Source: Cliona cf. orientalis (taxonomy: Eukaryota > Porifera > Demospongiae > Clionaida > Clionaidae). From it: a stretch of DNA of 64,000 nt. The translations under genes were made by a program, and so were the position numbers. The DNA lies in contig OZ005694.1 in NCBI GenBank assembly GCA_963930775.1, forward strand, positions 7,123,054 through 7,187,053, written 5' to 3'. Shown here one piece after another: positions 36,625-62,930 of the stretch; positions within the stretch are counted from its first letter, which is position 1; each line of letters begins with the position of its first letter. Below the pieces are notes generated by a model that worked only from the letters and a program-made list of their open reading frames with translations, had not been told where the DNA came from and made no database searches.

Positions 36625-37149
36625 GTAGTGGAATCCCTCAATGGCAGTCACCTTTGGGGAACGAAGTTTGGGCCATTATATAGAGAGGTGGTGTGTACCT
36701 CAGGGGTGTTTTGCTATATTGCATTATTATAATAGTACCAGTGTTCTCCCTAGCATACCCAAGGCACATCGGCCCAACAAGCCTTTGTAGTGATTATATC
36801 ATGTTATGTCATCCCTTATCCTGTATTACATTTACTTATGTAATTATCTTGTACTGGCGCCCCGCGCCAAATGCACAATGGTCTTTTGTTCTCTGATTTT
36901 TGGCCGCATGTATATGTATGTATGTCTTGTATTATCTATCGAGTGTGTGCACAATAATATTTCAACTTGCTAACTAACACAAAAGGTTAGCGAGAGAAGG
37001 GTTTCCAATTAATATACGTCAGTATAGCATCACGTGATCTATTCACCCGCGCGCCGTATATATAGTATATATAGTATACTAGTAGTACTGCACTGTACTA
37101 CGCATCATACTAGTTTGATGTAAATCTCTCATGTGATTCATTGCCGCTA

Positions 37150-38640
37150 TTCTCCTATTCACAGTTCTACGTGTACTCTGTGTTCTCGACTGTTATCTCA
37201 GCAACTATACTGTCACTACTATAGTATTTGTCCAGTGTTCCTTGTTCTCCAGTCCTCCATGTACTCTGTGTTCTCTAATACGGTACTGTCACTATACTAA
37301 TACTGCATGCTGATGTGTCCATGGCAGTGTTTCTTGTTCTCCAGTTCTCCACGTACTCTGTGTTCTCAACTGTTCTCTCAGAAACTACAATACTGTCACT
37401 ATATAATACTAATACTGCATGCTGATGTGTCCAGTGTTCCTTGTTCTCCAGTTCTCCATGTACTCTGTGTTCTCAACTGTTCTCTCATAGACTACAATAC
37501 TGTCACTATAATACTAATACTGCTTGCTGATGAGTCCAGTGTTTCTTGTTCTCCAGTACTCTGTGTTCTCAACTGTTCTCTCATAGACTACAATATACTG
37601 TCACTATAATAATACTAATACTGCTTGCTGATGAGTCCAGTGTTCCTTGTTCTCCAGTTCTCCATGTACTCTGTGTTCTCAACTGTTCTCTCATAGACTA
37701 CAATACTGTCACTATAATAATAATACTAATACTGCTGTCCAGTGTTCCTTGTTCTCCAATTCTCCATGTACTCTAGATCTGTGTTCTCAACTGTTCTCTC
37801 ATAGACTACAATACTGTCACTATAATGTACTAATATATACTGCATGCTGATGTGTCCAGTGTTCCTTGTTCTCCAGTTCTCCATGTACTCTGTATTCTCA
37901 ACTGTTCTCTCATAGACTACAATACTGTCACTATAATATTATTTCTAATACTGCTTGCTGATGAGTCCAGTGTTTCTTGTTCTCCAGTTCTCCATGTACT
38001 CTGTGTTCTCAACTGTTCTCTCATAGACTACAATACTGTCACTATAATAATACTAATACTGCTGTCCAGTGTTCCTTGTTCTCCAGTTCTCCATGTACTC
38101 TGTGTTCTCAACTGTTCTCTCATAGACTACAATACTGTCACTATAATGTATATAATACTAATACTGCATGCTGATGTGTCCAGTGTTCCTTGTTCTCCAG
38201 TTCTCCATGTACTCTGTGTTCTCAACTGTTCTCTCATAGACTACAATACTGTCACTATATTTCTAATACTGCTTGCTGATGAGTCCAGTGTTTCTTGTTC
38301 TCCAGTTCTCCATGTACTCTGTGTTCTCAACTGTTCTCTCATAGACTACAATACTGTCACTATAATACTAATCCTGCATGCTGATGAGTCCAGTGTTCCT
38401 TGTTCTCCAGTTCTCCATGTACTCTGTGTTCTCAACTGTTCTTTATAGAACTATAATAATACACAACACTAGTATATACTGCTGATGTGTCCAGTGTTCC
38501 TTGTTCTCCAGTTCTTCATGTACTCTGCATGCATGTGTTCTCATAAACTATTATACTGTCACCATAATATAATTATAGTACTGCATGCTGATGTGTCCAG
38601 TGTTCCTTGTTCTCCAGTTCTCCCTCTACTCCGTGTACTG
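37150..38640. repeat. Left subterminal minisatellite array
   Basis: About 15 units of ~100-105 bp (some shortened), containing tccagtgttccttgttctcc, tccatgtactctgtgttctc and ctctcatagactacaatact. The same unit occurs in reverse orientation at 55,965-57,865, making a very long interrupted inverted repeat. Confidence 0.95.
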
Positions 38641-39382
38641 TTATACCCCTGCATGGACCATTAGCAATATGAATATTTGCCTCTGCATGTGTATAATCCC
38701 AGTAGTGTAGCTAATAATTATACTCCTGTTCTCTGTATATTCCCACTGTTTGTAATTTTTCACTATTCTTCTGTGTTCTCCTGTTCTCTGTGCTATCTAT
38801 TCTCCTTTACTCTAGCTCGGACTCCGTTCTTTCTGTTCTTCTATATTCAGGCTTTTGTTCTTGTCAACAGTCATGTCTTGCAATTGGGACTATAGCATGT
38901 ATATATACATCTGTATTATACAATTATGTATATACTGTGACCATTGAAAATCGAGCTCCATTAATTTATCATTACATAACAAAGCAACCAGTAACACCAA
39001 TTACGTACATCATATATAATAATGCAAAAGCTATACATAATACAATCATGTACTATTATACAGTCAGCAAGCATGCACTGCTGCATGTTATCACTTAGCT
39101 TGTTTTGACATCTTGATTCATGCTGTAGACATGGCATTGTAGCTACCCTCTTTCTGTCTACATGGCTGGCACCAATGCATGCTCATAATAATAGTACTAG
39201 TACATGCAGAATTATATATAGGGAAAAACATGAGTGCTATAGTATAACAACACAGCTCAACGTTGGATAACAGTCACAACTATAATATCAGACTAACAGG
39301 ATATTATACAATGCATGGGAAAGACATATAACATGGAGAGGAACACAGAACAGGAAAGAAATATAGAGAATTCAATGCATGG
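38641..39382. other. No gene seen
   Basis: AT-rich spacer between the left array and the transposase stop. Some degraded array-like sequence (ctgttctctgt) up to ~38,850. Confidence 0.5.
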
Positions 39383-42257
39383 TCATGTAGATTCTGAAAG
39401 TGATTGTATTTCTTGTTCACAATAGCTGCATGTAAAACAGTTACTGTCAGTGATACTTTCCGACTGCATAGATGCATGAGCGCATGTAGTGTGCAACCAC
39501 ACACCACAGTTAATACACTGTATCCAATCAATGGGCTTGTCAGGTTCATTGCGGTCCTGCATGTCTTCTTCCTTAAAACACACACCACAAACTTGTACAT
39601 GATGAACTGACAGAGAACTCACACAGGTGTTTATTTGGGTTGCTGTGGGTTTGCTTAGTCCTTGATGGTCATCTGCCACTCTCCTTCTCTTTGTTGAGTG
39701 GAATCTTGGTTGACATTGTATATTAGTATTGGGAGCAATGGATGTTGCTGGAATTAGTTGTTTGTTGCCACTCGTGTTCTTCACACTTTTCATGATGCTG
39801 ACTGCATTTCGAATGTGTTGTATACCTGCTTTCAGAACGTCTTTATCACTTGCTTCTGATGCAAGTAAACTAGCCTGGCTGACCAACTGTTGAAACTCCA
39901 CTTTCAATTGATCCAGCTGGTCCACTTCTGATGGTGAAGATTGTTGGTGATAGTGACTGAATGTTACCTCCATCATATGATCTTGGTTTGGTCCTTCATG
40001 GTCATCTTGTGATACTGTTACAGTTGATGGTTTGAACCTCATGTGTACAATGTGAATGTGTTTACAAGCTGTGTTGTGGATGGCATTGTCCACACATGAA
40101 CAGGTGTACATGTGGACACAAACATCACATGCGGAACAACGAACCTTGCAATTGCAATCATGTAGATTACGTTTGACCAGATACATTTTACTGTCTTGTG
40201 AACTGGAAGATATATGCCATCGGCACACGGATTCTTCTTCCAGAGTCACCGTACCTTGCAACAAATCCAATGCTCTACGATGTCTCCTGTTAATTTCTCC
40301 AATGCGATGTGTGACTTTTCCTTTCTCTGATTTGATAATACGTTCGAACAGTTTGTCTCGTGCAATACGTAACAGAACCGACAGGAGATGATCTATTCTA
40401 CGGTTGTGCTTGCTTTCAAGGTAAACAACCTTGAGCAATCGGTGAAAGGATTCAACAGACATATTTGTGTTCACTGGTGTACCAACACGATAACAGTATG
40501 CCCATTGTTCTGTTCGTTTGGCATAGTATGTCTGGAAATACTCTCGAAAGGATTGCAACTGCGTATCGGACATCATCCATGTGATAAATTGTTGCATCAA
40601 TTTGCGAAACTCTGAAATAGAGAGTGCCTGTAGGATGCTGCGTAAACAACAATAAACGTCAGCCTTTTTGTCAATACTTTTGATCACTTGAAGGTTCTTC
40701 CGCCATGCTCTGTCTACATGCCAGCTACAGAGTAGCTTTGTAGGGTCTCCTTCGTAAATCTCTTTCCAAGAAGAAAAATACTGCTCTGCGTCATCAGACA
40801 TGAAGTACATAGTATGTAAGGGACCTGTTTTTAACAGTAGACTCCTCAGGAACTCCTTCAATGTAATCCCATCCTCTTTGTTGCTGATCATCCAGGCGAC
40901 TGGAACACCTTCTCCAAAATCATCCAAAACCAGAATTGTTACTAGCTTGAAGTCGTAGTGATTCGTACCATGTGTTGCATCCATGCAGATTAGCTTTTCG
41001 CCAAACTTTTTCATCATGTCGCATTGAAAACTTGTTTGAATTCCGATGAGGAAATCATCTTTGGGCAGAGTATGGTTTTCACTACCTTGTGGTTTAAACA
41101 CCACAATAGGGTTTGCTTCCAGCACTCTACCCACGCACACACACTCATATGGTCATCCTTGTGCCTTTCTATTCCTTCTATGTTAAATTGCCGCTTTATG
41201 TTGTTGATATCTTGCCTTGTAAGAAGGTGTTGACGTGAAATACTATCATTGACAACGTCCTCACGAATGTAGTCTAGAATTTTTTCAATAGTAACTCCTT
41301 CACGCAGTTTCTGAGCTACTACTAAACGTGTATTTTCGGGGAGAGGTATGTGACCTAATTGAATCGAGTGAGTGTGAGTTTGATAGTATGTAACACTTAC
41401 AATTCCAGAAGATATGTCTCGGATCACCTTCATATGAGCAGGGCATACATGGCCAATTTTACTGGTGCCTTGCATCTTCAGGCTTCGCTGACCTTTACCT
41501 TTAGGGATGTACTGACCACCACGATTGCAGTAATAGTACCACCTGTTTGTAGTACTGGAAGTTTGCATTGCACAGTGTTGCACGTATTTCGTATTGGATT
41601 CTAGCTCCTTAGAGGTCTTCCACTCCAGAAAGGAATGAATTGTTGGAAATTCAATCCTTGATTCACGTGCAACTGAATTATGTGCATCAACCTGATGCTG
41701 GATCAGTGAAGTCAATGTAGAAAACCTATAGGTATATTATAATAGTTAAAATTACTGTCAGACAACATTAATGTCAATAGGCGATTCTAGATTTTATTAT
41801 ATACACCCCCACGGTTGATTTCCTCTAAACATCGATCAAACATAAGTTTGGACCCCCTCAAGACTTTGTTAAAAATGGCCATCATGCACTGACACCTCCT
41901 CAATTAGCACATGCATGTTAAATTATAGCACTATTCCTTGGCATATATCCATGCATGCATGGACTGTATTAATAATCCGAGATCTAGTTAGCTATATACC
42001 ACTGAATATGCCTGCAATTGCAACTCAGCAAGTCAGCATACAAATCTCAACATGGTGCTTGCTTACATGGACGGACATTGTTGACATAGTATGGTGCCAC
42101 CTTTTGCTGACTTTTCTTGGTCATAATTCTCCCTGTGATGCAGCTTAACATGTTTAGAAAGCCCACCTTTACTCTTGTAGGTTCTACAGCAGTATTTGCA
42201 GGCAAACATCTCACTACCAACCGTCGTCGGCTCGTCCTGAACACAAACTTCCGCCAT
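39383..42257 (-). pseudogene. MULE transposase (C2H2, MULE core, SWIM, PHD), one frameshift
   Basis: Exon 1 42,257-42,067, exon 2 41,725-39,383. The intron splits the second of two C2H2 fingers (FACKYCCRTYKSKGGLSKHV; then CQQCPSM|FSTLTSLIQHQ). Next a FLYWCH/GCM-like zinc segment (RWYYYCNRGGQY, HVCPAHMKV, THTHSIQLGH), the MULE DDE core (Asp in LICMDATHGTNHYD, Asp in YFMSDDAEQYF, Glu in NMSVESFHRLL), a SWIM finger (CSC...CKHIHIVH), and a PHD-like finger (CGVC...WIQCINCGVWLHTTC). The frame shifts at ~41,130-41,145, inside a GTGTGTGTGC run: coding is open on both sides in different frames, and exon lengths sum to 2 mod 3. This could be a slippage mutation or a sequencing error. Its start is head to head with the OB-fold gene 283 bp away. 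Confidence 0.85.
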
Positions 42258-42540
42258 GGTTGGTGGGAAGCATGTATATATAGGGCCGGTCGCGTCACTT
42301 GGCGAGAGATCTGCTGCCACTGACTCGATGGCGAGGGGAGATGAAGCACGCAGTGACAAGCGAATCAGTTGGCGATCGCGAGAGATGTTGTATGTTGTTG
42401 GCGTGTCGAACTGTTTGTAATTTGGCAGAACGCGGGAGAACTTGCAACCTTATGCGGAGAACAGTTGCGAGAACATGCATGCATCCACGTGCACATTATT
42501 ATTTTCGTCGGGATCGAGATCCGAGTCTGAAGTCCGACTC
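42258..42540. promoter_or_regulatory. Candidate bidirectional promoter in the 21-kb element
   Basis: Short region between the MULE transposase start (-, 42,257) and the ATG at 42,541 (+). It is noticeably more GC-rich than its surroundings. Promoter activity is inferred from head-to-head layout only. Confidence 0.4.
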
Positions 42541-44565
42541 ATGGCAGCCCGTCGACCTAGTACGATTCCGGGTCCCGCTGGGAAATACTTCCAACCAAGC
42601 AACAAAGTAAAATATTATAAGGACATAGATCTAACAGTTGATATATATACTGAGCTAGTAAATAGCGCTATATAGCTAGATCTATATATAGCATGATCAT
42701 AGATAATAATATAGACTACGTATACGTATAGTCTATTATTATCTATGGCATGATGTAGGTAAAATTTAACACGTATTATGCATATAGTCTGCAGATGTTG
42801 AGACTTGCTACCTGGATTGGCCTTGGATCACAGCACTTGAAGTCGTACCAAAAGGTGACAGAGAATTACTATTATGCATATATACATGGTCAATAGCTAA
42901 TCATTTTACAACTGCATGATCCCGGCCGGCATGCATGACTTGTCGGTGTACGGTATATAGTTAGTAATTATCAATTCAATACCCTTCATCCGTGCATCTT
43001 AATTTAGAAGCAAGGCAGAAACTCGAGAGCAACAACATATATGAAATCACCGAAAAGGTGCATATAATGTACCTAATAGTATATGGCATGTCTACATGCC
43101 ATAGCTATAGATATACAGTGGAGTCTCCGAATAACGGACACCTTGGGACATAGGCCTCTGTCCGTTATTGAGGGTATGTCCTTTATTGGGGTGTTTTGGT
43201 TAAGCACCTCCCATTGGTCTAAATTAAATTATTACAGCTAATAGTAGCGATTTCAGACCTCTGAGGGCCTCCAGTAAATCGAGAATATCTCGGCTCTGGC
43301 TAGGAGTACACTCACGGAAAAAGTTGCGCTAGATAGCTCGTTGAATGAGCTATCTACTGACACCTTAAGCGTACAAATCCGTTCAGCGGAACCGCCGCTA
43401 ACTTTGTTTTTGTTTGTATTAAGTTTCTATGGGGAAAGTTTAGGTGGGCGTGGCTTCTTAACGGTTTTATCTACGAACGCGTAACAAGCACCATTGGATC
43501 GCGCTCGTGGAGAGCTACCTTCTGATATTCGAACATTGACATCCCACTGGAATATACTCTGCGGAAAAATCGCTGAAATTTGGAGGTCTGATATCGCTAC
43601 TAATAGATAAAAAAACATTGGTACAACACAAACCAAGTCAAAGCTGTGCCTACCTGGGACACATACAGTAGCAACAAGCTATAAGTAACTGACACAGTGC
43701 TGTGTGAGAGCTATATATCGCTCAGCTGCATACTTGAGTTCAGAGACGCGTTTGCAGTCCTATATCACCGTTCGCTGCTATAGTACGCATGCTGTGCATG
43801 AGCGTCCGTTGTGCGTGGAATTAAGAGGCGTGGCCACTGTAGTCCCGCCCACCGTCCGTTAGTCGGAACGCTTTTTGCATGCAACTGTACACTTCATGCA
43901 AGCTGCTGTGTCCGTTATCCGGAATTCGGAGGTTGTCCGCTATTCGGGTGCTGCCAATGTACTGTATATATATGAGATTTCGGTTGGTACATATGGCAGT
44001 GTCCGTTATTCGGTAGAAGTCCGTTATTCGGAGTGTCCGTTAATAGAGACTCCACTGTACACTTCAATTTTGATTGACAGGCAAGCAAGGGTACACTGCC
44101 AAACAGCAAAGTTGATTGGGTGAGGGTCATCATAGATGATGTAGTGGAGTGGGATCAAAAAGCTAATGGTCTCATCACAGTTAAAGATCCAACAGGTGAA
44201 TATTCACACAATTACACATCAAGAGTTGCAACAAAACCCAGCATCACATTAGTCTTGTAGCCACATGTTGTGTACTCACATTGTGATGCTGTTACGTATA
44301 ATGATTTGATTGTCAACATTGACGTTTGACAGGCAAAATTAAATGCTGTGTTTGCAGTAATATTATGATGAAAGATAAAGATAAGTGGCAATGTGGATCG
44401 GTATTAATTTTGAAAGAGGTAAATGGATATTTATTTTTGATATTAATTTGCCCATTGCATATAACAATACAGGTTTCTGTACTGTGCTTCAAGCATGGAT
44501 ATTATTCTGAGTCATCAACCTGTTATTTCAACATTATCAAAAGAAATGTATACTGTACGCTGTAA
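42541..44565 (+). CDS. Small OB-fold protein resembling HROB/DUF4539
   Basis: Well-supported exons: 42,795-42,854; 43,008-43,057; 44,081-44,195; 44,333-44,418; 44,473-44,565, all GT-AG and in phase, giving 134 aa that read DVETCYLDWPWITALEVV...KLESNNIYEITEK, VDWVRVIIDDVVEWDQ, ITVKDPTGKIKCCVC, GSVLILKEVSVLCFKHG and end NIIKRNVYCTL. The pattern of a beta strand, then VKDPTG, then GSVLILKEVSV, then a final strand matches the OB-fold domain of HROB (DUF4539), which loads the MCM8-MCM9 helicase in recombination (family knowledge, from memory). The first exon is probably the ATG at 42,541 (MAARRPSTIPGPAGKY), but no donor gives the required phase 1, so that junction is unresolved. Intron 3 is enlarged by a pogo-like MITE. 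Confidence 0.6.
43119..44058. repeat. pogo/Tigger-like MITE in the OB-gene intron
   Basis: ~940 bp with inverted ends CAGTGGAGTCTCCGAATAAC and the complement (ttaatagagactccactg), flanked by TA. Several internal tgtccgttattcgg repeats lie near both ends. Ends of the form CAGTGGAnnCTC...CGGACA are typical of pogo/Tigger. Confidence 0.8.
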
Positions 44566-44659
44566 CTAGCTATAATAGTATGGGTTTTTCTGGCCACTAT
44601 GATATAACTATTAACAGTTATGGTTATTGATTAATGTTTGCAATGCATCTTCTATAAAA

Positions 44660-44753
44660 TTATGATTTCCTACGCCTCTTTCCAAACACTTGCTCACGAT
44701 GGGACAAACCATCCATTAGCTGTCTGTCTTCAGAATCTGTTATAATATAATTG

Positions 44754-44803
<50 letters not shown>

Positions 44804-47800
44804 TAGAATACATGACTGTAGCTTTGATTTTGGGCAATGAATTTCCATTGCTACATACGGCAACATGCAACAGGATATCATTAAAGCAGGAATCCATGGT
44901 ATATACTTACTTCTTTTACGCACAGTGACAGTTGTGATGGGTGTGGCAATAGAGGTGGAGGTTTTCACGATAGTGCCATCACCGATGTGACTCAACGTCT
45001 GCTGCTGAGTAGTAGAGGGTGTGGCAATAGAGGTAGAGGTTTTCACGATAGTGCCGTCACCGATGTGACTCAACGTCTGCTGCTGAGTAGTAGAGGGTGT
45101 GGCAATAGAGGTGGAGGTTTTCACGATAGTGCCGTCACCGATGTGACTCAACGTCTGCTGCTGAGTAGTAGAGGGTGTGGCATCAGAGGTGGAGGTTTTC
45201 ACGATAGTGCCGTCACCGATGTGACTCAACGTCTGCTGCTGAGTAGTAGAGGGTGTGGCAATAGAGGTGGAGGTTTTCACGATAGTGCCGTCACCGATGT
45301 GACTCAACGTCTGCTGCTGAGTAGTAGAGGGTGTGGCATCAGAGGTGGAGGTTTTCACGATAGTGCCGTCACCGATGTGACTCAACGTCTGCTGCTGAGT
45401 AATAGAGGGTGTGGCAATAGAGGTAGAGGTTTTCACGATAGTGCCGTCACCGATGTGACTCAACGTCTGCTGCTGAGTAGTAGAGGGTGTGGCAATAGAG
45501 GTAGAGGTTTTCACGATAGTGCCGTCACCGATGTGACTCAACGTCTGCTGCTGAGTAGTAGAGGATGTGGCATCAGAGGTGGAGGTTTTCACGATAGTGC
45601 CGTCACCGATGTGACTCAACGTCTGCTGCTGAGTAGTAGAGGATGTGGCATCAGAGGTGGAGGTTTGCACGATAATGTCATCACCAATGTGACTCGACGT
45701 CTGCTGCTGAGGAGTAGAGGATGTGGCATCAGAGGTGGAGGTTTGCACAATAATGTCGTCATCGATACCGCTCTGCTCCTGCTCAGGAGTAGTGATTTCC
45801 AATTCGTTTCCTGGAATATCGGCATCATTAGATCTCATTGGCGAGATGCTCCTACTAGTAGAGCTATGATACGCTCTGCCAATGGCAACACCTGAGAGTA
45901 CTGCATTATAATTATATGAATAGTCAGAGAGCGCTTGTTGTATTGTGTTAAGATGTACTATTATAATTTACCATTCTTCAAGTCCAACAACAGCTTTTTA
46001 TCCAACAGCTTAGTGTTGATAGTACAGCACCTTCTTTTGTGCACCTGAGACTTTGGAAGGCCACTAAGTGAGTCTGCCGATGCACTTTGCTTGAGAAAGT
46101 ACCGTGCATCAACTGTGCTCCCTAATCCACTGTCCTTGACAGCTCTCTCAATGGACACCTTGCTTTGTGATACAAGTCGAGCACTCAGTAAGTCATCAAT
46201 AACCACAGCAATGAAACTTTCACTGCGATCAGCATTGCTGACTTGTGGGTTAACCATTCTCAACACCTACATGCATGCATTCATATAATTGTATGCAGGC
46301 AGGTGATGGCATATAAGTCAACACAATCATCGTAGCTAAAAGCTAGTGCATGCATGCATATATACTATACTATAAGCATACATCTGAGATAGTAAGATCT
46401 TCTGCCAAGGATTCTTGAAGGTTGTCAATCAACTCTTTGACAGTGCCGTTGAGGATGTCACTTGCCGGAGGAGGTGGTGCTTCAACTGTTTGCCACTTAA
46501 TGACTGCAGGTATAATCTGTGTCCTAAAATAGCGATATAGCTCTTCCCTACTGGGTACAAGAGCTTCGGACACTTCTGACAGCAATTCAGCCAGCTATGC
46601 AGTGAAGATTTGCATAATATAAGTGTGCCCCACCTTGTTAGCATGATCTTACCTTAATCGCAAAAAACAGAAGAATAGTATAGGTCCTCACTACCCTCGA
46701 TTCCACATTAGCTCCTTTGTCGGTGAAAAACTGTACTATTTCAGAGTTGATGTCGGCACGGTCTACGGTGTCCATTTCAAACACCTTGCCAAGCTTAATC
46801 AAAATCATCACACTTGTCCCAGCCTTCTTCTGAACAGCAATAAGCTCCGTGTCATCAATGCTACTGGATTGACCAGCACGTTCAAACGGTATGAGAACCA
46901 CACGTGATGCTTCCCTGTTAAATAAAAGTCATGACTTAATCTCTACTGGCCACATACCTGGATTGACACACATATTGGGAAATTCCAGGGTAGTTATTTT
47001 CCCTGTTCTCCACTTTTTTTAAACTAACGACCCTTACTTCATAGCTCCCCGCAAACTCACACCCTCGAAAAATAAAATACCATTGAAAACTTTCTGTTAT
47101 CTGCATCCCCTTGATAGCTTATTCAAGTTCACATCTCGCTGCCAAGGAATACTGGTGCGACAGGTTCTATGGTGAGTTTTGTTTCATGCATAATATGTCA
47201 TGAAAAAGAGAGGAACACCAGGCAGGCCAGAGCTATAATGAATACTGTGGCAGAGTGATGAACTATAGCTACACCTTATCACCCATTATGGCAATGTGAT
47301 GCACACATTACTAATTTAAAAGTCTTCAAACGATACTACACTTTACGCTCAACACGCATGTGCACAAGGGTACAGTACTCACTTGGTGTGTGGAGATTGC
47401 TGGCTTCATTTCAAGTTTGTACGACAAAATGAACCTACCATCTCCATTTTTCTAGGTTGCAGAATTCGATATAAGGCTTTATTTTGAGAGATATCGTTTT
47501 TTTTCATGTTTATCTTTAGCTTCCGGTCCACGAACAGTGCACAAGTGGCTACACATGGTTGCAATGCTTTCTATATAATGCACATAACTGTAATGCTGGT
47601 TGCGCATTTTGCAGTGTGGCATACACTTTATATATATATATATTACAAGCAGGGGGGCTCGCTTCGCTCACCCCCTGCTGCACCCGAATCGGCTGTCCCC
47701 CATCGAGCGTTATGTACTTTAGTGCTCTCGTACTTAAGAATAACTCACTTGTAATTGCTGCACAATTTATTCATCCTGTCCAGGTTTAAGGTCACAATAC

Positions 47801-48678
47801 CGACAGCTTTTGTAACGGTACTTTCCTTAGAAGTAGACCGAATCCCCCGGTTAAAAGCGTCATCGATAAGAGCTTTCACCTTTGTTAAATCGTCAGGATC
47901 ATCAAACACGGTGGGAAAAGTTTTTCTGCTGTTTAGAATTCCGGGTGCTGTAGCCGTAAAACTCCTTACAAAAAACTGAGGAGTGCCCATCAGGGACAAG
48001 AGTGTTGTTGCAGCTGTTGATTTCCCTGCATTTTTTGGTCCTATAGCTATGGGCGTGGGACACATGCCATATGTGTCCATCACACTCTCATAGTGCATGC
48101 CCATGGATCCAGCTGCAATCAGCATGAATGCTGGCACGTAGTTGTTACCAACTGCAGCTTTCAATGCTCGTAGAGTTGCAGCGAAAGTGAAGTAAGGATC
48201 ACCTGGTGTTACGACAGCGGCATCGGTTGCCAATGCAACATTTGACAATTTGCGATTTTTGATCAGTGATCCCAACCAGATGTAATCTCTTTGAAGTTGT
48301 GGTATTACTTCTCCATTCTCGTTGGTATGCACATCTGAATTGAGAATCCAGACGTTTGATTGGGGTTGACGCCCCAAGCATTCAGCAGCATTTTTCACAT
48401 ATTCAGTCTTAGATCGTCCAATTGCCTTCTGCCGTCGACAAAAGTCCGTTGTAATCTTCATAACATATTTGTCCAATTCGGCATCCTGCAGCTGACACAT
48501 GATCGACCCACATTCAAGGGACTGATTTAGCACTTTGACAAATTTTCTAGTAGACTTGGCATCGCTGGTTGTAAAGAAACACATTCTGCAATTGAACAGT
48601 GAGCATGCTATGCATGAATATATTATATTGTGTATACTTCTATACAGTAATTAGCACAAGGGTTATAGTACTTGCTTT

Positions 48679-48714
<36 letters not shown>

Positions 48715-49740
48715 ATGACATTGTGCTAAGTGTTTGCTGCCTTCATTTTAAATAATATGAACTCTCACACTATATATGTAATATTAATACCGTAAATCGG
48801 GAATTTTCGTTGTTAACATATTTTCGTAGTCCGTTCTAGCTACGAAAATTAAACACGCGAAATTTAATGCATGCATATTCATAACGTTAATGTATACGGT
48901 AAGGGGTCGCCGCCTACGAAAATTATTTAACACGAAAATTTACCCCACGAAATATTTTTAACACGAAATTTTCGCAATTTACGGTATATGCCAGTGTATA
49001 TACAATGTTGTTAACTTACTGAGCTTCCTCTCCCGTCACCTCCGACACCCTCACTACCCATCCAGCCTCACTGTTTCGTATCTTTACTTTAAGGACCACT
49101 TCTGAAATATAGAAGTTACTTTCTTCTATGAATGTGCTTGGATGCACCATAACACCGATCACTCCATCTAAAAAGTTTATGAAATTATTAACAAGGGCCA
49201 TATATATATAGACTCCTAAAGGAGAAGAGGGCAAGTAACTGTATGCTATTATGCCCTGTGTACCTAGCAAAATTCAAATCCACCCTGAATTAAGCTTATC
49301 AGGATCTTGTCCAGGGGCAATTCTAGGCTTTATGCTTGGGGATTTCTAAGCTATAGATGCATGTATGGCTTTGTAACACTTGAAGCTGCCTATATATAGC
49401 AGCTTTCTGCTAGGGGGTACTCTCAACAAGGCTGGGTTGGCTATCCAGAAGTACATGAAATTTTATACTGATACCTTGCTTTTGCCTTTTTGGAGATGGT
49501 TTTAAAGTGGTAAAATCTAGTTTCAGTTATAGCTAGCTAGCTACCTAGCTATATTCAACACTCAAGACTGTACTTACACATGGAGAGAGCATTAACGATT
49601 ATGGAATGCTCAGCTGTTTCCAGAAACCTAGGAAACCCCCCTAAAACGCCCATGTTGTCCACAGGCATATTGCAGTCCATGCAGAGGTTATTATTCCGAG
49701 CGAAACGAGGTTTATACTGCGAGATCGTATACGGCTTCAA
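44660..49740 (-). CDS. Helicase-like P-loop ATPase of the 21-kb element (~990 aa)
   Basis: Eight exons on the minus strand: ~49,740-49,578; 49,167-49,020; 48,586-47,749; 46,914-46,653; 46,594-46,382; 46,266-45,972; 45,891-44,911; 44,736-44,660. All are GT-AG with matching phases and no internal stop. An N-terminal LCMDCNMPVDN segment comes first. Exon 3 has the ATPase: Walker A IGPKNAGKSTAATTLLSLMG, hydrophobic-DD Walker B TVFDDPDD, sensor-like IVTLNLDRM, and an Arg-finger candidate SRVVLIPFER in exon 4. The layout is closest to DUF927/superfamily-3-like helicase ATPases; not MCM, not AAA of known type. Exon 7 is a Ser/Thr/Gln-rich 26-aa repeat tail; the protein ends FGKRRRKS, a possible nuclear signal. 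It lies tail to tail with the OB-fold gene (95 bp between stops). The 5' end is uncertain: first ATG in frame is 49,680, with open frame upstream to a possible acceptor near 49,787. Confidence 0.75.
44758..44799. repeat. (AG)n microsatellite
   Basis: About 42 bp of AG repeat in the last intron of the ATPase gene, just upstream (in gene orientation) of the final exon's acceptor. Confidence 0.95.
44935..45775 (-). repeat. 78-bp coding minisatellite in ATPase exon 7
   Basis: About 10-11 near-identical 78-bp units, each encoding a 26-residue variant of TSTSIATPSTTQQQ followed by TLSHIGDGTIVK. The unit length is a multiple of three, so copy-number change keeps the frame. The antisense strand is also open over the whole array, which is a by-product. 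Confidence 0.93.
48683..48713. repeat. (GT)n microsatellite
   Basis: gtgtgt tract of ~30 bp in the intron upstream of the ATPase core exon. Confidence 0.9.
48789..48988. repeat. MITE with TACCGTAAAT ends
   Basis: ~200 bp, inverted ends taccgtaaatcgggaatttt and complement, rich in TTTTCG/CGAAAA. Lies in an ATPase intron. Confidence 0.75.
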
Positions 49741-50329
49741 TATGTTACGTAGTTTTGGCGAACTGCACTCACTCTAGGCTCTAAAGTGCGACAGGTATCT
49801 TTTATACTTTTGTGGCAGTGCAAGTATTGTGTCACTCGCAGTGTGGTGCTGAACGGTGAGGCGAGTTCCCTGACTGGCACATGGTCGCAATCACACGCAT
49901 GTGCTATAGACGTGCGCGCCAGGAGGCAGTCCCTACTCATATCTCATGATTCGCTGAGCGAGGATCGCTATGATGGAGTTATTTACAGAATACACAAAAG
50001 AGGAACTTGAAGAAAATGTAGCTGGCAGTGATATAGCTAAGTATATAGTGGTGAAGCAAGTGCAGACTGCGTGAAGGACAGCCAGAATAAACTGGCAGCC
50101 TGAGTGTATCGCTAATTAAATTACCGCCCGCCCGCATGTATAGTGTTGGGATATGGATGTGGCTGATGCTATAAACTATGAATGTAGCCTCGGTTTGCCT
50201 GGCCTAAATTATAGTTACAAACCACTGTAAGGTATGAGTTTTGCCCAGGTGCCTAGTTACATGCCCTCTTCTCCTAGAACAACCCCCATTGAGGTGACGC
50301 CGTAGAACACCTCCCCCATGCATGTCTAT
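49741..50329. promoter_or_regulatory. Upstream region of the ATPase gene
   Basis: Contains a locally GC-rich stretch (49,850-49,960) and a short plus-strand frame from 49,971 (MMELFTEYTKEELEENVAGS) that could be a first exon of a divergent gene, with a possible donor near 50,040; no continuation was found. Promoter role is inferred. Confidence 0.3.
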
Positions 50330-51059
50330 GGGCTATTCCAGTTAATAAAGATACACCCCCATGGAAGAACACTATCACGTTTCCCCCCATGACAATAATT
50401 AAAACCACCTAAACACCCTCAAGACTAATTTATGGCACACTTACCCTGATGACAATTTAATTGAAGCCACTTCACCCCTCAAGACGTCATTATGAATACA
50501 CTGGGTACCCTCCGGACTAATTATGGGTATATATTATACATTTACCCTTATGACAACTTAATTAAAGCCACTCCCCCCCCCCCCCCCCCAAGACGTCATA
50601 ATGACTACACTGGGTACCCTCTGGACTAATTATGGGTACATTAATTGTACCCTGATGACAACTTATAATTAATTGAACCCCCAAGACGTCATAATGAATA
50701 CACTGGATACCTTCCGGACTAATTATAATAATATTAATATACTTCCTTCACAGGTGAAATTAGCAATGATGGCTATTATTTTATTCCATAATAATATGAT
50801 TATTATCTCAAGCATTTTTGAATTGACATTACAGTGTCCATAGGGCACTGAGAGGTAGTGTCGATAGGGAGCTGCTAAATGGATGATGTCTGGGGTATTA
50901 CCCTTTAATTAGCAGAAACAATAAGGTAATTGATACTGTGCTTGAAGGGAACCACTGCAAAAATGGTAGGGGATTACTATTGAAGAATTGAATGTGTCCG
51001 TGGCACAGCCAAGAGAATTAATGCATTAAGTATATTACAATAATATAGAACAGCATGAC

Positions 51060-52200
51060 TGGTGGATTGTAAGCTATACAAGACCTTAATTGGGGTGCAC
51101 AAGATGCATGATCGAATACACCCCAGGTAAGGTCTTGCATACAACGTACTAGTTAAGTTTCTCATGACTCCTCTCATCATTGGCCTACCCAGTGGCAGAG
51201 GATGACGGGGGGAGAGACGCAGTGGATGTGTCACATGTCTACCACAAAAGGGATCTATTAAAGGACTATTATGCAAGGGGGGCACATGCCCCTGATGCCC
51301 CCCTGGTTCCGCCACCTATGCTACCCTATGATCACCAATACCCCTCTGGTATCCAGTAATTTGCCTATAAGAACTTCTGTTGCTAGGCGATGGTCAACTA
51401 CGTACTGTGTACTGTATAGTCCATAATAATAATAACTATTATTATGGAGATTGTATGTGGTATTATGTATCTAAGTGGGTATGTGGTGTTATGTTACTTG
51501 TCAATGAGTGTGTGAGGGGATACAATAAGTTATAGTTATATGGCAGGCAGGCCAATACAAGATAATGGCTGCCATATAACTGACCTTGACATAGGAATTT
51601 AATTAGTACCTATTAATTCTTTTATATTGAGCACAGTGTCACTGTGTACACTAACATGAACCTGTTTGAGACTCTAATCTCTGTATTGGAGAATATTCTG
51701 CCACTATTTACCTTGGCAATTATGTGTTTGAGCTGTATGATATTAGGGTATTAATTTGATGTGATTATTAGGCTAGGTATGTATTATGGATTATGAGGGT
51801 ATATATGAGTATGTGTGATGTGATTGATAATACTCAATTGCGATTGAGGTGATTAGGGTACATTGTATTATTATTATATTGATCAATGATGGAATGGGTA
51901 TGTGTATGAGTCAATGAAGTGATAGTTTAATTGGGTATGTTTATGAATAGTTTGGAGGTATTAGAGTGTATGGATATTTGTTGATAGTTGCTTAGCAACC
52001 AAAGTTTTTATGGGCAATTTGCCGGCTATGGGAAGGGGTTGAATCATCATAAAGTAGGCCAATGATGAACAGAGGTCAACTACCAATAAAATAGTTATCT
52101 GCCAGTAATTGGGGTGCATGAGATGCATTCTGCCAGTAATTGTGGTACATTCGACCATGCATCTCATGCACCCCAATTACTGGCAGATAACTATTATATG
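51060..52200. repeat. Two copies of the ttgctaggc/gggtgcat MITE family
   Basis: One copy near 51,060-51,410 (reverse) and one near 51,960-52,200 (forward, with a small duplication of tgccagtaattg). Both share the gccggct core and a palindromic end (gcatgagatgcatggtcgaa-like) with the copy split by the ISL2EU element. Confidence 0.7.
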
Positions 52201-52800
52201 TATACTAGTTAATTATTTGAGAGTGTGATGTGATTAGGGTATGATATGATAATATTATGTATGTGTGAAGTGATTAGGGTATGTATGAGTTGTTTTTAAG
52301 TGCTATGTGATTAGGGTATGTGTGATGTGATTAGGGTATTACAATAGAGTGTGACCTTTGAAGCTCTGAGTTTGAGAGTGAATGCTGTCTGAGTACATTG
52401 TATGTCATATAAATTTGGGGAATGTGTTTAAGAGTATGATGAGATTGGAGCATATAATAGGTTACCAGTGAGCTTTGCAAACTCAAAGCAGTAACTTTTA
52501 TGCAGCAGTGGACAGGTGTGTACATAGTGACATTCACACTTTCCTTATAAGGAAGGTGTTAACCCAAACAGACTAATTATGTGCACCGCTAGGGCTGCAT
52601 CACTCCATCTGTGGTGGAGCTTCACATACACAATCACTAACTCCATTGCACACACTGCATGATCCTGAATTGAGCTAGAGCCTCAGGAAAGTATAGATCA
52701 AGTACTGCTGTTGGCCAGCTTCATTCACCACCCCTTCCCTCTCTTTGTGGATACTTTAGTAGTACACCAGCCAGACCCTCTAGCTCCTCCTTGTTTATTT

Positions 52801-52820
52801 TCTATTACTGGGGGGGGGGG
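52801..52820. repeat. Poly-G tract
   Basis: About 19 consecutive G, one of several G/C runs in the window (also 27,080, 30,395, 36,507, 50,575). Confidence 0.95.
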
Positions 52821-53165
52821 GGGGGGGGATATGAGTCCTCAGCCATAATTCCTGATAGCTCTATCTTACTAGCATACCAACAGTGCCATTCTCCCTGTGA
52901 TATGCTAGTGGAGATAATAGAATGTTATTGTGAATATGGCCTATTAGTATATGCTATTTACCTAAACTTACATACTGGTATTCTGAAGGGGAAGCTTGGC
53001 TAAGGGGTCAGAGTTGCATACAGAGGAGGGGGGCACTGGTTTATACATGTAGCTTAAATCGATTAACTTAATGAGTAATGATCACTATACTTTCTTGCTG
53101 TTGCTAACACCTGTCCTCGAGTTTATTATAGCTAGTTCACACTTGCAATTGTATGAAACATATCA

Positions 53166-53384
53166 GTGGCGTGTCCAAGGGGGGGCTCCGGGTGCTCGAG
53201 CACCCCCCTCAGCTCTGGCACAACAACCAGATCAGTAGCTCAGTGGCAACTCTTTATGCTGATAATCAACAACTGGTAGCCAGAACCAACAATGAACTTA
53301 AAATTCGCTTTGTAAGCAACGTTTTGGGCGCCGTGGCCTAAAATTTAGCACCTCCCTCCTTCAAATTCTGGACACGCCACTGCA
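53166..53384. repeat. hAT-like MITE
   Basis: Inverted ends CAGTGGCGTGTCCA and TGGACACGCCACTG bound ~220 bp. Same terminal style as the MITE at 56,878-57,231. Confidence 0.75.
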
Positions 53385-53767
53385 TATTTAGCTGTCACAA
53401 CAAAGATAGCTAATTATAATATTATTATAATAAACAGTACCTCACTATTCACCTCTCGACAAGTGGCATAATATTAGGTAAATTTTATAAAATCTTCTGG
53501 AGTTTTTGAGCTCAACAAGTAGCATCTCTAAAACATTACAATACAGAAACTAGAGAAACATGGCAAGGCTCAACTGCTATAGTTATGCACATGTATGTGT
53601 ATACGCACACCATGTGCATACAGAGTCATAACCCCTAGAAAAAATCATAATATTATGCAAATAAACATGATTGACATAGCTAGTCCATGACAAACAGAAT
53701 GAGCACTGGCCCAAGTAAGCCCTATGACAATACTTGAGCACATACTTATCATTAATTAGTATAGGTA

Positions 53768-53918
53768 ATAGTGAGGTTGTATGTTGAATTTGGGTAAAAT
53801 AGCACTCTGAAATAGGTATTTGGTTCAAAAATGTACGAGCGATAGCGAGTACAATTTGATGAACCAAATGCCTATTTCAGAGTGCTATTTACCCAAATTC
53901 AACATACAACCTCACTAT
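53768..53918. repeat. 151-bp near-perfect hairpin
   Basis: Arms atagtgaggttgtatgttga ... and complement, about 65 bp each, with a short loop containing cgagcgatagcgag. A foldback MITE or RNA hairpin source. Confidence 0.85.
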
Positions 53919-54520
53919 CACAGGCTAATAGTATACATACACAAAGTCAGATAGGTATTTCAACTCAGAATGGTATTTCAAACTCAGGTGCCTATTTCAC
54001 TTGTAATACTTGTAATTGGTATACAAGATTTGTATACATCAAAGTACAAGTATACTATTATTATGGTAATGGGGAGAGTTTGTTTGAAGGATAGCTTGGA
54101 TTAAATTAATACCATATAGGTAAAAATATTGGCAGTCACATAAGTTAGGCAATTTGGGTCCCAATGGCGCATTTCACACTATTCAGCACTTTAAATTGAT
54201 TTTAAATTGGCGGTTATGGTATGGTATCGCTATAATATTATCTTATACTCTCTTGTTATTATGTGTACATATATTACATGCATGCAGATCAGAATTTAAT
54301 TTAGAGGCATACCATCAACCCACCCAATTTTATTCCCTGCCAAATTTTCCAGCTCTACGGTATTACGTAATTCTCCATAGGGATATTTATTAGCTAAGTC
54401 GACAATAATATAAATTATGTCCCTAAGGGGTCGATCTATATCTTTAGGGATAAATTATAAAACCAAAATCATGATGTAAATTAAAGCTAGGCTGTGTATC
54501 AGTATGTATCCAAATAATTG

Positions 54521-54890
54521 TGAACCGCTCTGAGAAAAGGGACCACTCGGGATAAAATTTTATTTTTTTTACTTTACCAGAAACTATAGGATTTTGGCTT
54601 CATATACATATTGATATGCTATGTTTATATAGTTGCAAATGTAAACTATCGTTATGGGCGCAAACAATTTCTCGGACACATACAATTTAATACAAAATTA
54701 TACGCATTTTCCGAAAATCGAATATTATATCTATCTGTGTATATAAAAATGGTCATAATTCCACTTGTGATCAATATAAATTTTTATGAAACTTGCACCA
54801 TTGGATTCAGCACACACAGATCAATCCTTGCTAAAAACTCATTTTTTATGAAATATCCCGAGTGGTGCCTTTTCTCAGAGCAGGTCACGA
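54521..54890. repeat. MITE with ctctgagaaaagg ends
   Basis: Inverted segments ctctgagaaaagggaccact and the complement (gtggtgccttttctcagag) ~330 bp apart. No ORF. Confidence 0.7.
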
Positions 54891-55701
54891 TTAGTCTGAA
54901 CGGGTAGCTATATCTGACCCCTTTTGTTTATCCTATATTTATCCTGGTATGCACAGACATACTCTAGAGCTAGGATATATGTGATAGTGTGGTTCAATAC
55001 TTCTACAGTAGAGTAGAATTCTCTGTATAATATTATTCCGAATTGGGACAGCTTAATAAGGTGTCCTGATCAAAAGTGTTCTCATTTCTGGGGTGGCACC
55101 TTTCTAGCTATACGTTGCTGGAACCATGCATGGTGTCCTGATTAAGGGAGGTTTCATCATTTCAGGGATGTCCTTATAGAGGGGTTCCATGCACTGTATA
55201 CTATAATAATATAGCACTGTGATACCATGGTTGTGGGAGCATCTGAGATGTATATGTAATTTAAGGCTGATGAGTAAATTATTTGGTTATTATTATTCAG
55301 TGTTTCCCCCAGCATACCTGAATCAGGGTGGGCCACCCGGCTTGACTTTGGGCTAATTGGATAAACATCAAAGAAATGGGTGGAGTTTAAAGCCACAACT
55401 TAATTAAAACCCTATGAATATCATTAAGCACCCGGTTTGGATTCTGTTCTGGGGGAATCCCTGATTATTAATAATTAATTGTATGATTTGATTCTCCCTC
55501 ACTTCTTTAAAATACCCATCTACCCATCAGACAAATTATTAATCTAATTTAAGATACCCATCAGACAAATTATTAAATGTTATTTTGAGCCCATAAGACA
55601 GAAATTAGATTCTCCAAAAAAAAAACCCTGAAGACTAATTAGTGTTCTTCCATGGGGGTGTATCCTTATTAACTGGAATAGCCCTATAAGTATTTTGAAT
55701 T

Positions 55702-55926
55702 CTCACTTTGCACAGACACTGGCCGACAGCGACTGAAACGGCCGCCGCCAGGCGTGGAAGGCCGTGAACTTCCGGATCCGCAGCCTGACACACAACTCCC
55801 TGCCTCGATATCCAGCAGTTCAGTGTCGGACTCGTCGAGGTCGTCCTGGATCATTCTTAAAACTTTTCCTTTGAACGGTGCGAACAGAACGGCAGCTGAG
55901 TTTGTTGTAATACGAGTTAGACGCAA
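55702..55926 (-). CDS. Orphan 5' exon inside the right array
   Basis: Open minus-strand exon beginning MRLTRITTNSAAVLFAPFKG, acidic middle (DDLDESDTELLDIEAG), then a Gly/Ser/Arg-rich part (STPGGGRFSRCRPVSV) and a donor A|GTGAGA at 55,701. It is GC-rich like other first exons. It may be the 5' exon of the ATPase gene, from which it is separated by the TAT-flanked element 14 bp beyond the donor, but the phases do not match directly, so at least one exon is missing or the idea is wrong. Confidence 0.35.
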
Positions 55927-56494
55927 TGCGCATGCGCATCACGCCACTACCGAGAACAGTTGACAGTATTGTAGTCTATGAGAGAACAGTTGAGAACACA
56001 GAGTACATGGAGAACTGGAGAACAAGGAACACTGGACACATCAGCATGCAGTATTAGTGACCATATTGTAGTCTATGAGAGAACAGTTGAGAACACAGAG
56101 TACATGGAGAACTGGAGAACAAGGAACACTGGACACATCAGCACGCAGTATTAGTATTATAGTGACAGTATTGTAGTCTATGAGAGAACAGTTGAGAACA
56201 CAGAGTACATGGAGAACTGGAGAACAAGGAACACTGGACGCATCAGCATGCAGTATTAGTGACCGTATTGTAGTCTATGAGAGAACAGTTGAGAACACAG
56301 AGTACATGGAGAACTGGAGAACAAGGAACACTGGAAACATCAGCAGCACTATAGTATATATGGTGACAGTATTGTAGTTTCTGAGAGAACAGTTGAGAAC
56401 ACAGAGTACATGGAGAACTGGAGAACAAGGAACACTGGACACATCAGCATGCAGTATTAGTATTATTATAGTGACAGTATTGTATAATTATATT

Positions 56495-56768
56495 AGGCGA
56501 GGCAAACTAAATTCACAGTTTATCGTCACAGACTTTTCGATTTTGCATGCGGGCGGGCGGTCATTATTCAGATTTCAAACTAGTAAAAGAGTCTAGGTTC
56601 GATCTCGCGATCGCCGAGGCCACGCCCTTCAATTGCAGCGATCGAGGGGGCGGGGCCAAAGTGCCATATAGTTGCTGTATACAATCTGAAATATGAAATT
56701 TTTTGAGAAAGTCTGAAAATCCATGCGGGCGGTGACGATAAACTGCGAATTCAGTTTGACTGGCCTTA
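56495..56768. repeat. MITE in the right array
   Basis: Inverted ends ggcaaactaaattcacagtt / aactgcgaattcagtttgac bound ~270 bp with gcgggcgg near each end. Confidence 0.75.
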
Positions 56769-56877
56769 TAGTCTATGAGAGAACAGTTGAGAACACAGAG
56801 TACATGGAGAACTGGAGAACAAGGAACACTGGACACATCAGCATGCAGTATTAGTATTATTATAGTGACAGTATTGC

Positions 56878-57231
56878 AGTGGCGTAGGCAGGGGGGGTGC
56901 TCAGGGGGCTCGAGCACCCCCCTCTGCTCTTGGCCTAGTCATGCCTAGCCTTCACATAGTCCATAGAACAGCCTCATCCAGCACCCCCTTGGCTACTCCA
57001 AACTATCATCTACTACAAAAAACAGCTTAGAAGATAGTTAGAAACTTATCTCATCCCAAGATTCGGCCGAAAACCTTGAGCTAGCTCGCTAGCTACATTC
57101 AGAACGCGTTCTCTATGACAATTTGAACTTCGACCTTGACGGTTAATAAGTGGGCGTGGCTTAAAATTTTGCGCGCGCGCTTCGCGCGCGTACTCCAGCA
57201 CCCCCTTACCTAAAATCCTGGCTACGCCCCT
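56878..57231. repeat. hAT-like MITE in the right array
   Basis: Ends CAGTGGCGTAGGCAGGG and CCTGGCTACGCCCCTG, ~350 bp. These ends are common in animal hAT MITEs. Confidence 0.75.
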
Positions 57232-58078
57232 GTATTGTATATATTATAGTCTATGAGAGAACAGTTGAGAACACAGAGTACATGGAGAACTGGAGAACAA
57301 GGAACACTGGACTCATCAGCATGCAGTATTAGTATTATAGTGACAGTATTGTAGTCTATGAGAGAACAGTTGAGAACACAGAGTACATGGGGAACTGGAG
57401 AACAAGGAACACTGGAAACATCAGTAGCACTATAGTATATATGGTGACAGTATTGTAGTTTCTGAGAGAACAGTTGAGAACACAGAGTACATGCATGGAG
57501 AACTGGAGAACAAGGAACACTGGACACATCAGCATGCAGTATTAGTGACCGTATTGTAGTCTATGAGAGAACAGTTGAGAACACAGAGTACATGGAGAAC
57601 TGGAGAACAAGGAACACTGGAAACATCAGCAGCACTATAGTATATATGGTGACAGTATTGTAGTTTCTGAGAGAACAGTTGAGAACACAGAGTACATGGA
57701 GAACTGGAGAACAAGGAACACTGGACACATCAGCATGCAGTATTAGTATTATAGTGACAGTATTGTAGTCTATGAGAGAACAGTTGAGAACACAGAGTAC
57801 ATGGAGAACTGGAGAACAAAGAACACTGCAGTACTATTATAGTGACAGTATTGTATACTATTATAGCTATACGAGAACATAATATAATTACACGCGATGG
57901 GCCGCGGGCGCGGGCGCAGGTGAATAGATCACGTGATGCTATAGTGACGTATATACGTATAGTATTATTCAGGAAAACCTTCTCTCGCTAACGGTTACTT
58001 AACTAACTGTTACGCAAAGCTCGATCTTCGCGATACTACACTGGCGACGAGGAGTGGACTTACTTCGCTGCACGTACG

Positions 58079-62011: not shown

Positions 62012-62930
62012 ATTTTTTTTTGCATTATTGCATACTTCTCATTTTTTTGTCACCTTTTATTTACTTTGTGTTTACAGGGGAGGAGTGTAGTGATTATATC
62101 ATGTTATGTCATCCCTTATCCTGTATTACATTTACTTATGTAATTATCTTGTACTGGCGCCCCGCGCCAAATGCACAATGGTCTTTTGTTCTCTGATTTT
62201 TGGCCGCATGTATATGTATGTATGTCTTGTATTATCTATCGAGTGTGTGCACAATAATATTTCAACTTGCTAACTAACTGTTACGCAAAGCTTGATCTTC
62301 GCGATACTACAGCCTTCAGTACAGAACTCTCTTTGATGTGGGGAATGGGATAACCCAAAACCTTTGTTGTGGTCACAGACTCCACCCACACCATGCCCTT
62401 TTATCATGCCTTGAATTTTATTTGGGGAGAACAGTGTAATACTATGGTGATGAAGTTAGGACCAAGGTGAGTGGCCGTTGTAGACAAGGTGGCCATTAAG
62501 AGGGGTTCCACTATAAACACTTGAATACTCGTACTGTATTATATGAACCTGTTTTTCGTCATCAGACAGTGCCTTCCACAGTGATGGGATCTCCTTTATC
62601 AGCTCCGTATTGAGACCTGGTACTCCAGCCTCTCTCAAACATTCACCAGCAAAATTAATATTATGTTATGAGCAGAAAGCTTTCTTGGCTGTAGAAAAAG
62701 CACAAAATAAGTAGCTGTATGTATACAGGAATACATAATAGACAATATCAATAATGCAAATGTAAGCATAAAGGATAAGTACATGAACGTGTAGGGCTTC
62801 ATACCAGCATCAGTGCTTGACTGTACTACTGCATAGCCAGAAATACTGACAGGAAGCAAATTTGATGCTTAGGTACCATAATCTTTACACAATCTTTACA
62901 TTATAGACTCTCTTCTGCTCTTCATACTAC

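Follow-up and report, generated by a model that had tools for sequence, protein, structure and literature searches.

A recently mobile Mutator-type element of the sponge Cliona cf. orientalis carries an HROB-type gene and a P-loop ATPase gene, the latter recurring in a second element type

The Cliona cf. orientalis genome contains a low-copy Mutator-type element (MULE) of about 15.7 kb that, to judge from its copies, has moved recently as one unit, and that encodes a predicted HROB-type OB-fold protein and a P-loop ATPase in addition to its transposase. It was found in a window (i.e., the whole stretch of DNA analyzed, 64,000 bp; C6:7123054-7187053) of the 216.8-Mb host assembly. Based on comparison with a second element, c2, we lean towards the interpretation that both belong to a group of large elements with terminal inverted repeats (TIRs) in this genome, whose shared core would be an ATPase gene with its upstream X exon, a convergent HROB-type gene, and a 32-bp subterminal repeat in inverted arrays, and not the transposase. 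This leaning applies to the explanation as a whole, whereas the specific mechanism proposed within it (see below) is held much more tentatively.

The element spans positions 36979..57999 (21,021 bp with a nested insertion counted in), from ACAAAAGGTTAGCGAGAG at 36979 to CTCTCGCTAACGGTTACT at 57999, as delimited by its termini, target-site duplication (TSD), empty LTR partner, and two further copies. The exact limits within an LTR claimed in an earlier note on this DNA were confirmed by the 8-bp TSD TAACTAAC on both sides (36971..36978 and 58000..58007). The unoccupied LTR partner that the note had placed at 62,271 is also present: an insertion-free counterpart lies at 62086-62311, with the empty target site at 62271..62278 (repeat families D8 and D13). 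No strand is assigned to any of these features. The left (36979..37052, + strand) and right (57914..57999, - strand) TIRs are imperfect, aligning at 81% over 79 columns with 12 gap columns, and their outermost 7 bases fall outside the match. The size of 21 kb given earlier is overstated for the element proper, because 5,355 bp of it (50330..55684, no strand assigned) are a nested TIR element (GGGCTATTCC..., 3-bp TSD TAT) that is missing from both other copies, where the empty site is visible; the element proper is therefore about 15.7 kb. The nested element has the TIR GGGCTATTCCAGTTAATAAGGATACACCCCCATGG, and the one frame of it scanned against Pfam had no match.

A genome search with the outermost 162 bp at the left returned six matches, which are both ends of three elements (6 of 6 candidates scored); this outer end is present in just three elements of the assembly. 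The two further copies are located at C1:22192080-22209920 (17,841 bp, TSD CTTTTTTC) and C6:46244-62225 (15,982 bp, TSD GGATATATG). With TSDs of 8 bp (window), 8 bp (C1), and 9 bp (C6) outside their TIRs, all three lie in the 8-11 bp range expected of Mutator elements. The earlier note had proposed such a search for copies with the same TIR, and both extra genes recur in 2 of 2 other copies, which occupy new sites, each with its own TSD, and do not share a conserved host locus. Both contain the exons of MULE, HROB, and ATPase as well as the X frame, with 94.7-100% protein identity per aligned piece (excluding the ATPase repeat exon, which is included in the DNA alignments) and 99.2-100% DNA identity over the six exons compared. 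Minor variation exists in copy 3, which has 1-base indels in the catalytic part of the transposase and in the ATPase core and whose AT0 exon was matched in two pieces. Three near-identical copies with their own TSDs and all of the genes indicate that the element moved recently, as one unit.

The transposase gene (39383..42257, - strand) comprises a C2H2-like exon (42257-42067), a second exon starting at 41725, and a catalytic frame that extends to 39383. The earlier assignment as a MULE transposase holds for the domain (Pfam PF10551: 33.2 bits against a cut-off of 27.6, E 7.2e-8), which is outscored by the related-looking PF21056 (ZSWIM1-3 RNaseH-like, 2.2e-10). Matches at the N-terminus (C2H2-like, 23.5 bits against a cut-off of 27, E 8.1e-5) and the C-terminus (PHD-like, E 0.013) are below threshold; a DNA-binding zinc finger is frequently found in Mutator transposases. 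The assignment does not extend to one continuous frame, the criterion for autonomy, which is absent in all three copies: the N-terminal and catalytic parts are in different frames with a break near 41130, at the same residue in each copy. An old defect, a frameshift, or a tiny intron could each account for it. A GT run adjoins the break.

The OB-fold gene (42541..44565, + strand) has five exons (42541-42606, 42795-42854, 44081-44195, 44333-44418, and 44473-44565) with GT/AG borders throughout. This agrees with the intact splicing reported earlier, and the modeled length is 139 aa instead of about 134 aa. The predicted protein is an HROB (C17orf53, MCM8IP) homolog, matching PF15072 over residues 52-135 (50.8 bits against a cut-off of 30.8, E 1.6e-13), and an upstream IPGPAG stretch is presumably an HROB-like motif. 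The element version differs from known HROB in being short, transposon-borne, and additional to a host gene of canonical appearance (C11:1622.5 kb), which is separate from the element and has one exon above the cut-off. Two weaker HROB-like host loci were found (L050, C14:3525179; L051, C18:5020812), and this host tally is a lower bound, given that the family search did not recover the element's own HROB exons. L050 and L051 have further frames in common (86-96% DNA identity in pieces) and are possibly a duplicated gene or a repeat; the DNA fetched around them contained no ATPase match and one weak MULE match only (E 0.027).

The ATPase gene (44660..49213, - strand) was modeled with seven exons (49213-49020, 48585-47749, 46914-46653, 46594-46382, 46266-45972, 45900-44911, and 44736-44660), and in the window copy neither its frames nor its GT/AG borders are disrupted. 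The intact splicing claimed for a protein of about 990 aa is thus borne out over 955 residues, with the N-terminal end open. More exon-like frames exist upstream, including a candidate exon (49578..49680, - strand) that occurs in both other copies, although its splice to 49213 is uncertain, and the X frame (55685..55938, - strand), a probable first exon region that also precedes the ATPase gene in c2 and in the partial element c1b. Near the C-terminus, a 78-bp tandem repeat (44852-45853, 10 overlapping windows) encodes a 26-residue repeat.

Judged from its sequence, the protein is a member of the P-loop NTPase family. An initial protein search using the spliced ATPase as query gave no hits at E 0.01, and a profile search of 5.8 billion proteins recovered 41 homologs of the ATPase core among 7,999 scored candidates, none of them named. 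Across 31 aligned rows, P-loop residues K206, G209, K210, S211, and T212 are invariant and D250, D251, and P252 of an acidic Walker B-like motif are conserved at ≥90%; a tree of 35 rows had no backbone resolution. In the host genome, the core exon has 32 matches, including the three copies, of which copy 3 is matched in two pieces. Outside these copies, the matches are c2 (about 59-60%), c1b (two pieces, 57-63%), and others at 21-30%. A 33-residue fragment (L030, C14:4469068-4469172) is 73% identical and nearer to the window type than to c2. Two distant relatives, L011 (C1:21056828) and L014 (C1:19697540), share a similar divergent upstream frame that is SWIM-like by eye and had no Pfam match in the copy scanned; these loci are possibly further elements, and no flanking inverted repeats were found in the 18 kb of DNA around L011.

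The second element, c2 (C2:11738493-11767784, 29,292 bp), is bounded by TIRs starting with GGGTTATGTACC and flanked on both sides by the TSD CGCGCGCA. Its gene order and orientation match those of the window element (X exon, ATPase exons, an HROB-like stretch, and a 756-aa frame). The X frame is 45% identical over 53 aa in c2 and 42% in c1b, in both cases before the ATPase gene, and the c2 ATPase exons show 27-59% identity per exon to those in the window. For the core exon, dN between the window and c2 is 0.34 over 276 codons, and dS is saturated and not computable. The antisense stretch KVDWLRVVIEEIE in c2 resembles HROB exon 3 (KVDWVRVIIDDVV), with a score of 51, above all 40 shuffles (at most 46), whereas the other 7 of 8 HROB exon queries, of which three came from the host copy, scored no higher in c2 than their own shuffles. 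The stretch is probably what is left of an HROB gene, placed and oriented as in the window element, and HROB is probably common to both element types. The transposases, in contrast, differ: c2 carries a 756-aa frame that we read by eye as a DDE transposase, for which Pfam returned weak OTU and CXC matches only, under the cut-off, and which does not align to the MULE of the window element (hhalign 0.4%; blastp E 1.1 at best). The c1b element (from C1:33762754) is the left part of an element of the same type as c2.

Retrotransposon-like frames, recognized by eye, are nested within c2. Its upstream flank (L040:183-6345) contains Helitron-type frames (Helitron_like_N 1.5e-15, PIF1 9.9e-9, OTU 6.7e-5), and PIF1- and OTU-like frames adjoin c1b as well. 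These Helitron-like genes were excluded from the cassette because those near c2 are outside its TIRs.

The 32-bp repeat GTTCTCCWGTTCTCCATGTRCTCTGTRTTCTC also connects the two element types. It has 248 genomic sites at ≤2 mismatches, compared to 0 for the reversed control. At ≤4 substitutions, the window element has a left subterminal array of 10 units (37244..38433, + strand) and a right array of 11 units in inverse orientation (55992..57817, - strand), and c2 has arrays of 5 and 7 units, inverted at its two ends, with no units detected in one shuffled window. The c2-type TIR occurs at 45 genomic sites, including 12 facing pairs 1.4-2.2 kb apart. Among the listed repeat clusters outside the three copies, c2, and c1b, 4 of 8 are inside a c2-type TIR pair and the remaining 4 have a single TIR of this type no more than about 1 kb away; these clusters look like putative non-autonomous relatives. 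At another site (C7:1898213-1907836), an exact c2-type TIR pair 9.6 kb apart contains no match to the ATPase core exon.

The presence of the ATPase gene and the repeat, and probably of HROB, in two element types with different TIRs and transposases favors a function for the element over capture, and speaks for extra genes that serve the element instead of hitch-hiking. The earlier note had offered both a self-assisted transposition or replication strategy and gene capture; the shared cassette of c2 tips this choice towards element function, of which a self-assisted or replicative strategy may be one form. Under capture, a MULE would have taken up host HROB and ATPase genes in a Pack-MULE-like manner as passengers useless to it. 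Such uptake is common in MULEs (according to the excerpted text of PMC6446971), the host has another HROB gene, and the HROB of c2 may be broken. However, the frames and GT/AG borders of the window copy are intact, and the recurrence of ATPase gene, X exon, and repeat in an element type whose TIRs and transposase are different is not expected from capture. A cassette serving the element is the simplest account, and we regard passenger capture as unlikely.

Affiliation of the ATPase bears on what such a cassette might do. The description of this protein as helicase-like is unproven: it is a P-loop ATPase whose similarity to DUF927 is sub-threshold (15.8 bits, under the Pfam cut-off of 22.6). 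DUF927 is nevertheless the sole recurrent Pfam family, found in 14 of 31 members at E ≤0.1 (best 0.0011), compared to 2 members for the next family. The first match of profile A1 in PDB was 5dgk ('Active helicase', E 0.16) and the fourth was 8tch ('Pathogenicity island protein', E 0.4), which we take to be Cch and SaPI Rep, respectively, whereas profile A2 (30 of the 41 homologs plus the window exon) matched no helicase in PDB, but only three Liprin chains (E 0.64-0.87), a result that weakens the link to Cch. Using hhalign, A1 scored 91.3% and 86.9% against 12 phage and plasmid DUF927-type proteins; with 32-34 columns aligned in the region of the P-loop, values against the DUF927 set were 53.2% for A2 and 67.0% for the combined set, compared to 0.6% (PIF1) and 0.1% (toprim) for the controls. 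Single members of either family scored 0.1-65% against the profile of the other. When the columns of the DUF927 alignment were shuffled 40 times, the best 8 scores included one of 135.4, presumably a parsing fault, followed by 19.3, compared to 56.3 for the unshuffled pair; 40 further shuffles with a different query set reached at most 18.0. PHROGs returned three unnamed families, each in 1-2 of 31 ATPase members, and NCBIfam two unrelated families, each in 1 of 9. The predicted structure of the core exon had a mean pLDDT of 32.6 alone and 40.7 with 31 rows. The similarity to DUF927/Cch helicases is weak and undecided, i.e., worth testing and insufficient for assignment.

A different role for the ATPase would be the control of where or when the transposase acts, with HROB serving separately. 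TnsC, MuB, and IstB exert such control in bacterial transposons, and the occurrence of a P-loop ATPase beside different transposases speaks for this explanation. It is nonetheless improbable in our view, because none of these three families was found by Pfam in the 31 members at E ≤0.1, compared to DUF927 in 14, and because HROB is a helicase cofactor. Even less probable is that the extra proteins shield the element from host control or otherwise aid integration. Precedents exist in MULEs, in that the Arabidopsis Hiun element encodes vanC, which acts against silencing, and integration apparently requires mudrB (both in the excerpted text of PMC6446971), but Pfam identified HROB for one protein and a weak DUF927 match for the other, and no silencing-related family.

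Returning to a cassette that serves the element, we tentatively propose, by analogy, that an ATPase and a helicase cofactor act at DNA ends on iteron-like arrays, a mechanism that is possible yet clearly less secure than the cassette itself. With help from the HROB-like protein, the ATPase would assemble on the subterminal arrays, which would take the role of an iteron-like origin, and would open or remodel DNA at the element ends. This may assist excision, gap repair, or copying (the exact step is our inference) while the DDE transposase cuts and joins. The MCM8-9 helicase is activated by HROB, as stated in an excerpt of PMC11055865. In SCCmec, Cch (a DUF927 helicase) is paired with LP1413, a small ssDNA-binding protein, and Cch2 requires an iteron (excerpted text of PMC7581432); this combination is the analogy behind the proposed mechanism, and not proof of it. 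The replication modules of SCCmec and SaPI (Cch, Rep) resemble the sponge element in that an ATPase encoded by a mobile element is accompanied by a small protein (OB-fold or ssDNA-binding) and by repeats. They differ in that the similarity is below every threshold and gone with profile A2, and the present element is eukaryotic, spliced, and has a DDE transposase.

Compared to known MULEs, the element shares the MULE domain, TIRs, and TSDs of 8, 8, and 9 bp. Additional ORFs are known in MULEs (mudrB, mutB, vanB, and vanC; excerpted text of PMC6446971), whereas the extras here, in an element of about 15.7 kb, are an HROB homolog and a P-loop ATPase that recur in c2, whose transposase does not align. 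No report of a MULE with HROB or this ATPase was found among the papers listed in searches of open-licence PMC literature, as judged from titles and abstract beginnings. A more far-reaching version, which we consider rather unlikely, is that a transposase-independent cassette of element-encoded MCM-like initiator helicase, HROB-type loader, and iteron-like arrays is swapped between animal DNA transposons with different DDE transposases, for their own unwinding or replication. The general view is that animal cut-and-paste transposons rely on the host for unwinding, gap repair, and copying. A cassette of HROB homolog and novel ATPase that is kept while TIRs and transposase differ would make a helicase step of the elements' own directly testable, and would put a homologous-recombination cofactor inside a selfish element.
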